Program-made: the position numbers and the translations under genes
Origin: Thermodiscus sp.
GTDB taxonomy: Archaea; Thermoproteota; Thermoprotei_A; Sulfolobales; Acidilobaceae
Direction: 5' to 3'
NCBI GenBank assembly: GCA_015521175.1
Contig: WAOR01000108.1
Coordinates: 1-44,959 of the forward strand
Length of the DNA: 44,959 nucleotides
Notes under the pieces: generated by a model
The model's database searches: none
Told to the model about the DNA's origin: nothing
Seen by the model: the letters and a program-made list of their open reading frames with translations, nothing else
In this document: positions 4,071 through 16,996 of the stretch, piece by piece
Layout of the letters: each line of letters opens with the position of its first letter
How positions within the stretch are numbered: the stretch's first letter is position 1

Positions 4071-4315
4071 AGGTGAGCCGTTATACTAGGGCGGTATCGA
4101 GGAGTGTTACTAGGTACGTACCGCCAATAGCCCTCCTGTTATCCCTCGCCGGCGTAGGGGTATTGTGTGATGCGCTAGCCCTTATCATGGTCTCTCTACC
4201 ATACGCTCTACTAGTGGTGGCGTTGGTCACGCAGGAGTTCAAGGCGTCTACTAAGATAGCATTAATAATATTATATTTAGAATTATTATTAGTTTTAATA
4301 GTCAAGCATGGCTAG
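4067..4315 (+). CDS. Small hypothetical membrane protein
   Basis: ORF overlapping the upstream stop (ATGA); two hydrophobic segments. Confidence 0.5.
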   Translation: MKVSRYTRAVSRSVTRYVPPIALLLSLAGVGVLCDALALIMVSLPYALLVVALVTQEFKASTKIALIILYLELLLVLIVKHG

Positions 4316-4905
4316 CATGGAGTAAAGGGAACCAGCCTTCTAGGATTAAACCTACGCGGCCTAAACAACCCCCCTACAGCAAAGCGGAGCGGTACATCGA
4401 AATCAGATGACACGTTCACTCGGTAATGCCTCGACACCTCAACGGGCTCATAGGCGAAGTAAACCCTTATCATACCACGCCACACGGGCAATCCATCATG
4501 CCTAAGACTAATGCCCATGGCCCTGGAAACCCTCCCAGGACCCTCAACGAGTCTTCCATCCACAAGGCACGAGCGTGCTAGAACCGCTCCCCCACTCCCC
4601 GGCTCGTGGGCAACAATGTTTGCCAAATACCAACCATGCATACCGTAAACAAGCAGTATCCCCGGATCTCCAAACAGCCTCTCCCTTATCCTGCCAGACT
4701 TATACCGCCTAGCCCTAGAGCCGGGATCACAATCTCCGAAGTAAGCCTCGGTCTCCACGATAATACACGAGCGATCATTGACTACTAGCCTAGCTCCTAG
4801 AAGTTCACGCGCCACAAGGTCTGGCCTCCTGGCATAGAAGTCTCTGGGGATAATCCGGCCCTTCTTCGGAGACTCTTTAAGGGCGCTACTGCTCGTGTTC
4901 TTCAT
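4312..4905 (-). CDS. 3-methyladenine DNA glycosylase (AAG/MPG family)
   Basis: LARELLGARLV, VETEAYFGDCD, LLVYGMHGWYLANIV, EGPGRVSRAMGI motifs. Confidence 0.85.
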   Translation of the reverse strand: MKNTSSSALKESPKKGRIIPRDFYARRPDLVARELLGARLVVNDRSCIIVETEAYFGDCDPGSRARRYKSGRIRERLFGDPGILLVYGMHGWYLANIVAHEPGSGGAVLARSCLVDGRLVEGPGRVSRAMGISLRHDGLPVWRGMIRVYFAYEPVEVSRHYRVNVSSDFDVPLRFAVGGLFRPRRFNPRRLVPFTPC

Positions 4906-4961: not shown

Positions 4962-5018
4962 GGGGTCGAGCCGCAGAGAATTCTTCACTGTTCAGCTAGG
5001 TGTTGGCTCTTCATCCCC
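4962..5018 (-). ncRNA. Box C/D guide sRNA (candidate E)
   Basis: Minus-strand read: GGGG-g-ATGAAGA-gccaacacctag-CTGA-aca-GTGAAGA-attctctgcggc-TCGA-CCCC; 12/12 spacers, 3-nt K-loop, terminal complementarity. Confidence 0.82.
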
Positions 5019-5181
5019 CCACGGTCTTGCCCAGCGCTCTGGAAGGATTGATATTTTTAGTCCCACGTTTATCCCACCTCTATATGTAAAGATTTATATT
5101 AGTTTGTAGTGTATTGGTACTTACGAATACGGACTGAGTAACAAATAAAATCTTTGAATTCCCATATTAACACCTGGCAAG

Positions 5182-5224: not shown

Positions 5225-5578
5225 ATGGTAAAACAAGTAGGCCTTGATAGGAGTGAACTAGAGAAGAGCCTAAGAGCGCTGCTACACTGCTTTAAAGCCG
5301 CTAACCCGGAGGTGTCAGCCAGAATAATACTGTTACTACTTGAGAATGAGAAGGGTATTACTGTCAGCGAGATAAAGGACAAGGTGAATGTGAGCTATGC
5401 AATGGCTCTCCGTATCATTAGCGAGCTGGAGAGCCTGGGCATTGTGGAGACTGATAGAGTGAAGGTTGTTAAGGGTAGGGGTAGGGCTAGGAAGCTAGCG
5501 AGGCTCTCAAAGGAGGGAATAGTGAGGCTAGCCAAGCAGTGCATTGAGCTACTAGAGCCTCTTACAAAGATACAATAA
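5225..5578 (+). CDS. Winged-helix transcriptional regulator (MarR/ArsR-like)
   Basis: GITVSEIKDKVNVSYAMALRIISELESLGIVETDRVKVVKGRGRARKLARLSKEG. Confidence 0.75.
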   Translation: MVKQVGLDRSELEKSLRALLHCFKAANPEVSARIILLLLENEKGITVSEIKDKVNVSYAMALRIISELESLGIVETDRVKVVKGRGRARKLARLSKEGIVRLAKQCIELLEPLTKIQ

Positions 5579-12391: not shown

Positions 12392-12688
12392 ATGACGGGT
12401 AATGCACTCTTTCCTGATTGGCTGCAATCCCTCCTCCTCCTACTCTTCCTGGGCCTAGCAATAATCCTAGCCTTCCAACAGGCAAACGAGTTAAAAAAAC
12501 TACAAAAATCATCAAATAAGAAAGTCTACACGGTAATAGTCTGCGGAGACAAGGAGCACACCAGGCAGTTCCGCGAGGGTGACTATGTGGGAGCTAAAGT
12601 ATCCTGTGATGGTGAAGGAGAGGGCCGGATAGTGAAAATATACGCGATTGTTCCAGAAGAGCAGAGTAAAAAGCCGATGAAGACCTAG
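12392..12688 (+). CDS. Small membrane-anchored hypothetical protein
   Basis: ORF with N-terminal TM; 4-gene-cluster context. Confidence 0.5.
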   Translation: MTGNALFPDWLQSLLLLLFLGLAIILAFQQANELKKLQKSSNKKVYTVIVCGDKEHTRQFREGDYVGAKVSCDGEGEGRIVKIYAIVPEEQSKKPMKT

Positions 12689-12741
12689 CTAGCCTTGAGC
12701 CCCCGTGGGGGCTGTGATGAGCACCGGGTTAGCCGAGGCTT
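12671..12741 (+). ncRNA. Box C/D guide sRNA (candidate A), overlapping 3' end of upstream CDS
   Basis: AAGCC-g-ATGAAGA-11nt-TTGA-GCCCCCgtGGGGGC-t-GTGATGA-12nt-CCGA-GGCTT. Confidence 0.75.
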
Positions 12742-12874: not shown

Positions 12875-15800
12875 ATGGGTGAATTCGAGATGAAAAAAGC
12901 AATACTTAGCAGCCTCCTAGCAGTAATATTCATACTGAGCATAGCGGCTCCAGCCATGGCCAGCAGCCCAAGCATAATAGCCAAGGAGTTTGCAAAGCAC
13001 TCAGTACAATCAACTATCCTCTCGAAGACTGTGCCCCCTAAGGCAGACTACTTCCCCGTAGACAAGATTGACAGAGCAATAATGGATGCCCACTATATGA
13101 GGGACCTAGCCGGAAGGTATGCAACATTATTTGGCAAGGTATATCACACGAACAAGCCCTCGCTAGGCGTCTTCGTGAAAATCAAGAACATGAACTATGT
13201 AAGCGATATAACGAGGATAGCTAGTAGGTTCGGAGGAAAAATAGTGAAGACCTATCCGGAAATAAACACCGTTCTAATAGCATTCCCAGCGGACCCGGGA
13301 GCCGTGGCTAAATTCTCCAGGATAGCCGCCGGCTCCACCTATGTAGAAAAGATAACCCTAGATAGGGTTGCCCAGCCTGCAATGTGGGACACGACAATAC
13401 TTCTCAGGGCCTACGACGTTTGGAACACACTAGGCATTAACGGAAGCGGCACACTGGTAGCAATACTAGACACGGGAATAGATCCGACGAACCCTGCAGT
13501 TCCTTATCCAGCCTATTGGAAAGACTTCATAAACAACCAGTCAACACCCTATGATGACGTCGGCCACGGGACCCACGTGAGCGGCACAGTAGCCGGTAAC
13601 GGTCCATCAATATTCAACACGACGACTGGAATGTGGCACGCTGTGCTAGTAGGTCAGACCGGGCAGTTCAACTACATAGACAAGGCCAACCTAACCTATT
13701 CAGTAAACGTCACAGGCTACGGTGGAAGCAACGTGACCCTAAACATAACACACCTCTATATACTACTAGATACTTCATATGCTAGCTATGGCTACATCTT
13801 CAAAGCTGGAGCCTATATATACTATAAATTTGATAACGGCAATTGGACGCTCCTAGCAAGCTTCAATGGAAACCAGACCACTCCGGTAACAAACTCCTAT
13901 AATATAACGGTTCCAGCTAATGCAACAACAATGGAAGTCTCCTTCATCTACGACTATCTAGCGGCATACATAAATGGAACGTACTACTTGAGCCACTGGG
14001 ACATAGATGGATGGTTCATAGACAAAATAGTAATATACAATGCAACTAACTCGTCCCAAGTACTCCTCTACGACGACGTATCAACGCTAACTCCACCGCC
14101 AAACGTTATCACACACAGCTGGTGGGTAAGGACGCCGAGCCAATTCCATGGAATAGCGCCGGGAGCTAAGATAGCCATGGGCAAAGTCTGCGGAACATCC
14201 GGATGCCCCTACAGCGCAATACTCAATGGAATGGAGTGGGCCTACAATATTAGTGCAGACGTAGTATCTATGAGCCTGGGAGGACCCGCCTCATCCTATG
14301 ATCCAATAGCGCAAATGGCTGACTGGCTAGTCGAAAACGGAATAGTAGTTGTAATAGCAGCAGGCAACAGCGGCCCAGACTACTACACAATCGAAAGCCC
14401 AGGCATAAGCCACGAAGCAATCACGGTAGCGGCCGCAACAAAGGCATGGACAACCGCATACTTCAGTAGTACTGGTCCAAGCCCGGTAGACTACTACCCG
14501 AAGCCAGACGTCTCCGCCCCCGGAATGGCGGTATCATCAACGGTCCCAATGAGCCTCGGTCTGTGGGCGCCTGACTTCCCCTACGAGGCATGGGCCGGGA
14601 CAAGCATGGCTACGCCACATGTTGCTGGCCTCGCCGCCCTCATAAAGAGTGCTCATCCAACATGGACACCCTACATGATTAAGTCGGCAATAATCTCGAC
14701 CGCGGACTGGCTCTACCCTAACGTCTACTTCCCCTACGCTTATGACATCTACAAGCAAGGCGCAGGAATGATTGACCCCATGCAAGCCGTGACTACTACC
14801 GTGATCCCGAAGGAGGCAAACGTGTTCCTAGGAACTCCGGTGAAGTACATAGACAATAGCACCGAGTACAACATCACGCTAATTAACCTAGGCTCCACTC
14901 CAGCCCAGGTCAATATCACAGACATAGACCTCTACTGGACTAGCGCTAACATAAGCCACCTCTCATACCAAGACTGGGACGCTGCAGTGCAGTCGCCAAG
15001 CATCGGCGACAGCTATGTCATACCGCCCAATGGAACTATAACAATAACGCTATACATTAATCTGACAAACACAACCATGCCCACAGGACCCTACGGTGGC
15101 CACATAACATTCAGCACCAATACAAGCGGTACCATTAAGGTAATCTACGGCTTCACACTCCTAGTCCCAGTATGGATAAACGGCACAGTCATAGACTACG
15201 ACACTGGGAAACCAATAGCGAACGTGAATGTAAGCGCCTGGACCCCATACCTCGACAGCCTTTACGGCTGGAACGTCACAGACTCAAATGGAGAATTCCA
15301 CATAAGAGTGCCGTCTAACACCACCATTAGGCTTGTAGGCGAGGACCTCTCCGGCACTCACTACCTCTACATGAGCTACCCCTTCGACAGTGACGGAGGA
15401 GCATACCTCTACATATACATGAAAGAGAGGGTAACACAGCCTACAATACTAATAGTCCCCGACGCCCACGCGGCCCCTAACGTAACTAAGAGCATAGCGG
15501 CGATGGAGGGAGCGGCGAAGGAAGCGGGCTTACCATTCTTCCTATGGAACCCTGCAAAACTAGGAACAATATACGGCCCCGTCCTGAGCGGAGACTTTCC
15601 AGTAATAGCGTACTTCTCCGGAGGCTACTACTATCCGATAAGTGACGCCGCCGACTATACAGCCCTATACTACTATTCAGTCTACTACAACGGTCTAATC
15701 ATCTTATCTGGAGGAGACATAGGATGGTTCCACGACAATGATGCATTAATGGTTAATGTTGCCCACGCAAAGTTCTACGAGGACATGTGGCCGGACACCT

Positions 15801-16996
15801 ACAATGTAACCCTGCTAAAACACCCGATAACAGTGACGTTCTTCGGTCCAGAAAACTATCTAGAATACTATAATGCTAGCGACGGCACTCCAATAGGTAA
15901 CATCACAGCCTACTATATCGGCGGTTACTGGCCGGACAGAGTCCTACCAGAGAATGGTGGAGTAACTATAGGCAACTGGAGCGACCAGATCAACACGTCG
16001 GCTATAGTAGCCTACGACGGATCCGGAAACACCACGGCCAAGACGGTATACTTCGCCTTCGACACGGACATGCTCAACGAGAGTATAACAGAGCAACTAC
16101 TAATGAGAGCACTCGCCTTCTACTACGATCAAGCACCACCAGCTCCAAAGAACGACGCGATAATAAGCATCGACTACCCAATTATTGAGATAAACGCTAC
16201 AAATGCCTTCCAGGACGACTTCGCGATGGCTCTCTATAAGATTTCAATAACGAGTGGAAACACAACTCTATATACCTCAGCGGCGTCTTCTCCGATCTTC
16301 GCGATAAACGCTTCTGAAGTGGGACTAACACCTGGTAATGAGTACAATGTAACAATAACTGGAGTAGACCTACTAGGCAAGGAGACACCTGCAATAGCAT
16401 CACTGAAGCTCTACAGCCCTGCAAAGGGAGCATCAGTACTCTTCCTGGACAACACAACCGCCGTTGTGCCAGGCGTGACTAGAGAGGAGGTATTAGATAC
16501 GACCATGGTCTCGGCCAACATTACCGCTCCAGCGACAGTGCAGATAGTGAAATTCCCAGATAACACTACCTTCTCAAGCGTCCTAGGCGTGCCACTACCA
16601 GCGAAACTGAACAGGTTAAACGTTTACATGGACGTGTACGTCAAACAGTCGACAAGCGGCGCCGTGAAGAAGATAGTGTTGAAGTTCTACATGAATACGA
16701 AATGGGTGAAGAACGATGACGCAGTAGTGCTCTGGTACGATGGAACCACTTGGAGAAAAGCCAGCAATGTAACTGCCGACCCGAAGACTGGTGAAATTGA
16801 CGTTGTGATAACGAACACCACCAGCCCGTCGATCTCTGACCTAACCGGCACACCGGTAATTCTGTCAGCTCCCGCTAAGATAGTTGGAGGAAGCCTGGCG
16901 TTACCAGAGGCCTCTAACAGCTTTGCAGTAGCAGTAATGGCGCTGACGGCGGCTCTCGCAGTAGCGGTTTACTTCTCCGCGTATAGAAAGGAGTAG
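12875..16996 (+). CDS. Large secreted, membrane-anchored S8 subtilisin-like protease
   Basis: Signal peptide; AILDTGID, GHGTHVSGTVAG, GTSMATPHVAGLAA triad; many N-glycosylation sequons; C-terminal TM. Confidence 0.93.
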   Translation: MGEFEMKKAILSSLLAVIFILSIAAPAMASSPSIIAKEFAKHSVQSTILSKTVPPKADYFPVDKIDRAIMDAHYMRDLAGRYATLFGKVYHTNKPSLGVFVKIKNMNYVSDITRIASRFGGKIVKTYPEINTVLIAFPADPGAVAKFSRIAAGSTYVEKITLDRVAQPAMWDTTILLRAYDVWNTLGINGSGTLVAILDTGIDPTNPAVPYPAYWKDFINNQSTPYDDVGHGTHVSGTVAGNGPSIFNTTTGMWHAVLVGQTGQFNYIDKANLTYSVNVTGYGGSNVTLNITHLYILLDTSYASYGYIFKAGAYIYYKFDNGNWTLLASFNGNQTTPVTNSYNITVPANATTMEVSFIYDYLAAYINGTYYLSHWDIDGWFIDKIVIYNATNSSQVLLYDDVSTLTPPPNVITHSWWVRTPSQFHGIAPGAKIAMGKVCGTSGCPYSAILNGMEWAYNISADVVSMSLGGPASSYDPIAQMADWLVENGIVVVIAAGNSGPDYYTIESPGISHEAITVAAATKAWTTAYFSSTGPSPVDYYPKPDVSAPGMAVSSTVPMSLGLWAPDFPYEAWAGTSMATPHVAGLAALIKSAHPTWTPYMIKSAIISTADWLYPNVYFPYAYDIYKQGAGMIDPMQAVTTTVIPKEANVFLGTPVKYIDNSTEYNITLINLGSTPAQVNITDIDLYWTSANISHLSYQDWDAAVQSPSIGDSYVIPPNGTITITLYINLTNTTMPTGPYGGHITFSTNTSGTIKVIYGFTLLVPVWINGTVIDYDTGKPIANVNVSAWTPYLDSLYGWNVTDSNGEFHIRVPSNTTIRLVGEDLSGTHYLYMSYPFDSDGGAYLYIYMKERVTQPTILIVPDAHAAPNVTKSIAAMEGAAKEAGLPFFLWNPAKLGTIYGPVLSGDFPVIAYFSGGYYYPISDAADYTALYYYSVYYNGLIILSGGDIGWFHDNDALMVNVAHAKFYEDMWPDTYNVTLLKHPITVTFFGPENYLEYYNASDGTPIGNITAYYIGGYWPDRVLPENGGVTIGNWSDQINTSAIVAYDGSGNTTAKTVYFAFDTDMLNESITEQLLMRALAFYYDQAPPAPKNDAIISIDYPIIEINATNAFQDDFAMALYKISITSGNTTLYTSAASSPIFAINASEVGLTPGNEYNVTITGVDLLGKETPAIASLKLYSPAKGASVLFLDNTTAVVPGVTREEVLDTTMVSANITAPATVQIVKFPDNTTFSSVLGVPLPAKLNRLNVYMDVYVKQSTSGAVKKIVLKFYMNTKWVKNDDAVVLWYDGTTWRKASNVTADPKTGEIDVVITNTTSPSISDLTGTPVILSAPAKIVGGSLALPEASNSFAVAVMALTAALAVAVYFSAYRKE

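Follow-up and report, generated by a model that had tools for sequence, protein, structure and literature searches.

We conclude with high confidence that positions 5019 to 4962 on the minus strand of a 44,959-nt stretch of archaeal DNA (the window) hold a gene for a box C/D sRNA whose two guides direct 2′-O-methylation at the equivalents of G830 and C859 of E. coli 16S rRNA. The window is contig C108 of an Acidilobaceae metagenome-assembled genome (MAG; order Sulfolobales; 131 contigs, 83% complete). Its fructose-1,6-bisphosphatase is most similar to those of Acidilobaceae MAGs, with 99% identity to the best named one, and the GTDB order is taken from the named relatives. The predicted gene, about 58 nt long, is intergenic, lying between a methylpurine-DNA glycosylase gene identified by Pfam match (4312 to 4905, minus strand) and an HTH regulator gene (5225 to 5578, plus strand), and no open reading frame of at least 60 amino acids overlaps 4962 to 5019. 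As expected for a box C/D sRNA, the host encodes all of L7Ae, Nop5, and fibrillarin: the fibrillarin and Nop5 genes are adjacent on contig C53, and there are two L7Ae-family genes. The sRNA is of the ordinary double-guide archaeal box C/D type, previously unannotated, with unusually drifted box motifs.

On the minus strand, from 5019 to 4962, the RNA reads GGGG-G-AUGAAGA-GCCAACACCUAG-CUGA-ACA-GUGAAGA-AUUCUCUGCGGC-UCGA-CCCC. Re-reading the sequence reproduced exactly the layout given in a preliminary description (boxes, two 12-nt spacers, a 3-nt K-loop, and complementary ends). The interval proposed there, 4962 to 5018, stands at its 3′ end and is extended to 4962 to 5019 at the other, since the 5′ arm begins at 5019. 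That arm, GGGG (5016 to 5019), pairs with CCCC (4962 to 4965) to form a terminal stem of 4 bp that brings boxes C and D together, as archaeal box C/D sRNAs require. Box C (AUGAAGA, 5008 to 5014) and box C′ (GUGAAGA, 4982 to 4988) are each one base off the consensus RUGAUGA, and the exact consensus is found in several homologues, AUGAUGA occurring as box C in several of them and as box C′ in G001, G003, and G004; the GAU at 5013 to 5015 would form the k-turn bulge. Box D′ is CUGA (4992 to 4995), separated from box C′ by the loop ACA (4989 to 4991), the length of which varies among homologues. The D′ guide, GCCAACACCUAG (4996 to 5007), and the D guide, AUUCUCUGCGGC (4970 to 4981), are both 12 nt long, within the 10 to 12 nt expected of an archaeal box C/D sRNA. 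Box D (UCGA, 4966 to 4969) is two bases off the consensus CUGA, retains the GA needed for the sheared pairs, and aligns with the CUGA of diverged homologues such as those of G161 to G166. Reading box D instead as CU(N)GA with an 11-nt guide, with which the f1 sequences taken alone are compatible, is disfavoured, the CUGA of the diverged homologues sitting in the UCGA register. An AT-rich, TATA-like element, AAAAAUAU (5051 to 5058, minus strand), precedes the stem by about 35 nt and is a possible promoter; a similar element is found at roughly the same position in the close relative G002. The plain folding energy shows no extra stability relative to shuffled sequences (z = -0.11), as is expected of an RNA held by k-turns.

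Words as short and degenerate as these boxes could fall into such an arrangement by chance. A search for a relaxed C/D motif closed by a 4-bp terminal stem gave two matches in the window (4962 to 5019, minus strand, and 12677 to 12736, plus strand) and none in 60 dinucleotide-shuffled windows. Together with compensatory change in the terminal stem and conservation across 17 genomes, described below, this makes a chance origin extremely unlikely; it is the conservation across genomes that refutes it, and homology is a stronger proof of the sRNA than the motif shuffles.

The other match in the window, at 12677 to 12736 on the plus strand, reads AUGAAGA-CCUAGCUAGCC-UUGA-GCCCCCGUGGGGGCU-GUGAUGA-GCACCGGGUUAG-CCGA in an AAGCCG/GGCUUC context and overlaps the end of a small open reading frame. 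All four other genomes of the genus contain matches to this region, and the D guide of this second C/D-like RNA can form 11 pairs (10 Watson-Crick, one G.U) with a sequence of G016 located downstream of its 16S gene, in what is presumed to be 23S. The stretch from 12875 to 16996 on the plus strand is a 1373-amino-acid open reading frame with a C-terminal hydrophobic segment that, judged by eye, reads like a subtilisin-type serine protease.

A 16S gene was looked for in the host MAG and is absent, so the exact target of the sRNA is inferred from sister genomes. The 16S of G001 and G003, both of the same genus, reads GGGCUAGGUGUUGGGCGGGCGAGAGGGCCCGCCCAGUGCCGCAGGGAAGCCGUUAAGCCC and contains both target segments, CUAGGUGUUGG and, 34 nt on, GCCGCAGGGAA, in agreement with the earlier claim that the two guides address a single 16S neighbourhood. 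The D′ guide forms 11 contiguous Watson-Crick pairs with CUAGGUGUUGG, and the D guide forms 11 contiguous pairs with GCCGCAGGGAA, namely seven Watson-Crick, one G.U, and three Watson-Crick, for a total of 10 Watson-Crick pairs; in the window's RNA the twelfth position is unpaired in both guides. The preliminary description had looked for at least about nine contiguous pairs with the organism's own 16S, and this length is exceeded by both guides in the 16S of the sister genomes. When aligned to E. coli rrsH, the paired segments fall at about 826 to 836 and 855 to 865, and by the N+5 rule the predicted 2′-O-methyls are at the equivalents of G830 (D′ guide) and C859 (D guide); the sites put forward earlier, CUAGG and GCCGC with the methyl on the last nucleotide, are the same two. 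In the established 16S secondary structure, G830 and C859 lie on opposite sides of the helix 26 base. The 16S genes of G001, G003, and G031 (L015, L016, L018, and L230) exceed the model length (1959 and 2202 bases, for example), which suggests that they contain introns or inserts.

Matches this good are rare among shuffled guides. Only 3 of 5000 shuffled D′ guides matched equally well anywhere in a 16S-23S operon, and the second-best match of the D′ guide itself in the 16S of G001 and G003 has 6 pairs. For the D guide, 7 of 5000 shuffles matched equally well within 100 nt of the D′ site and 69 of 5000 did so somewhere in the operon; because of the latter figure, and because the D guide also forms a 12-pair, G.U-rich match in the 23S of two relatives, the D guide considered alone is weaker as target evidence and not decisive.

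Nucleotide searches together with pattern searches recovered the guide pair, its order unchanged, from 17 genomes representing six genera of the family, in which the loop, stem letters, and flanks diverge while the guides persist. All 17 share one D′ guide sequence, a number that is partly by construction, because the pattern that found most of these genomes demanded the D′ guide core; the first nucleotide search was made without that constraint. Pattern matches in G093 and G149, outside the family, lack boxes and were taken as chance. The paired stretch of the D guide has a single variable position, which is U in the window's genus (giving the G.U pair) and C elsewhere (giving a Watson-Crick pair). 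Compensatory change in the terminal stem was assessed over 15 distinct sequences: 78.9% of cells are paired, compared with 55.6% in shuffles, 18 cells have changed on both sides, compared with 7.1, and the covariation score is 0.573, compared with 0.187, with none of 500 shuffles scoring as high.

A covariance model built from 15 sequences matched in 60 of 216 genomes of the order at E ≤ 0.01, with the best diverged homologues in other families reaching E values down to about 1e-12. The strong additional matches, in genera g4 and g22 and families f6, f7, and f8, share the layout C - CCAACACCUAG - D′ - C′ - UUCCCUGYGG - D, and in many of the f7 homologues box D is CUGA. Several of the weakest matches (below about 28 bits) have no recognisable D guide, and these weakest matches may be chance or partial. 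Because the model includes the guides, it is biased towards sequences that keep them, and the number of genomes says less than the wobble pattern does. The 16S target is identical in nearly all genomes in which sRNA and 16S are both readable. Across all guide positions, 11 substitutions keep pairing with the target and 13 break it, ten of the breaks being in the four box-adjacent positions, two at position 11, and one at position 8. At positions 5 to 10 from the box, counted by hand, eight substitutions are pairing-neutral (C to U opposite G, or A to G opposite U) and one is breaking. The homologue in G107 has 12 paired positions, one of them G.U, and shares a contig with the 16S gene, which is about 2.3 kb away (L200). 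Genera g5 and g6 have a different 16S target (UUAG; GCCACAG); no homologues were found in these genera, where a compensatory guide change was sought.

In the 17 close homologues box D is UCGA, UGGA, UAGA, or UUCA and never CUGA, with UUCA lacking even the GA, and both guides are conserved regardless of this drift. These facts would fit a C/D RNP that sits on both strands of helix 26 but, owing to degeneration of the terminal box D, methylates a single site (most likely G830), its main role then lying in 16S folding; chaperone roles have been proposed for double-guide sRNAs (Dennis et al. 2015, PMC4644070). L7Ae is reported to depend for binding on the box C uridine, a terminal stem, and two sheared G.A pairs (PMC7994747). 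By sequence all of these are present in the window's RNA, and the GA, the box C uridine, and the terminal stem are kept in all but G010, which argues against the loss of one site and leaves this reading unlikely. Both the D′ and the D spacers are 12 nt in the window's genus; in other genera, read by eye, the GA of D′ sits one base further along, the D spacer measuring about 15 nt, and in these genera, where the D′ boxes are degenerate, the D′-directed methyl might move, with some uncertainty, from G830 to G829. A broader version, in which box D has decayed across the order with both guides still kept on helix 26, methylation at C859 is lost or weakened, the D′ site goes from G830 to G829 between genera, and the sRNA acts mainly as a clamp or chaperone of helix 26, we likewise consider improbable.

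The element ends 57 nt upstream of the start of the glycosylase gene, on the same strand, and L7Ae-bound k-turns are known in mRNA leaders (PMC5539422, PMC6298567). It could therefore be imagined as a k-turn in the 5′ leader of the glycosylase mRNA, through which L7Ae binding controls translation. Such a leader element would leave unexplained both the second C′/D′ pair and the two 12-nt stretches that persist from genus to genus and are both complementary to a single 16S neighbourhood, and we regard it as very improbable.

As a double-guide C/D sRNA, the RNA has many counterparts. Of the 489 archaeal C/D sRNAs catalogued by Dennis et al. (2015, PMC4644070), 262 are double-guide, defined as having two guides that act within 100 nt of each other, and their rule for a target asks for nine or more Watson-Crick pairs in a row, with G.U also admitted for double guides. 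Judged on the 16S of sister genomes, the present RNA qualifies as double-guide by these criteria: across the N+5 nucleotide the D′ guide passes the nine-pair rule strictly, and the D guide passes it only in the G.U-relaxed version. It resembles other archaeal double-guide sRNAs in length, box order, spacer length, terminal stem, and having targets no more than 100 nt apart in one rRNA, but differs in that its box D is not CUGA. The closest parallels in arrangement are Nanoarchaeum equitans sR17 and sR15, the guides of which likewise pair with opposite strands of one 16S helix (PMC4644070); their targets lie far from each other in the sequence (helices 28 and 30), whereas those described here are separated by 34 nt, at helix 26. 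We did not find the helix 26 target pair named in the searchable main text of that paper. No Rfam family reaches its gathering score in the window, and the subthreshold matches are all archaeal C/D sRNAs, the best being sR9 (RF01312) with 23.2 bits against a gathering score of 36 and snoPyro_CD (RF00095) with 19.1 bits against 45; these two share the C/D box architecture, but their guides differ.

Taken as a double-guide methylation sRNA, the RNA very probably directs two nearby 16S ribose methylations. We infer that it is transcribed and would fold into a terminal C/D k-turn and an internal C′/D′ k-loop, bind L7Ae, Nop5, and fibrillarin, and use its two guides to pair with both strands of the helix 26 base in nascent 16S rRNA, upon which the RNP would 2′-O-methylate the G830 equivalent (D′ guide) and the C859 equivalent (D guide). 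By holding both strands of helix 26 apart, it might also have a folding-chaperone effect. The finding brings to light a C/D sRNA family that spans the order, has a well-supported pair of 16S targets, and matches no Rfam family at threshold. Guide turnover is the usual picture for C/D sRNAs, with about 17% of predicted sites common to more than one of seven species (PMC4644070); the retention of both guides in different families stands in contrast to it. The natural series of box D variants, combined with near-constant guides, offers a direct test bed for the box D requirement.
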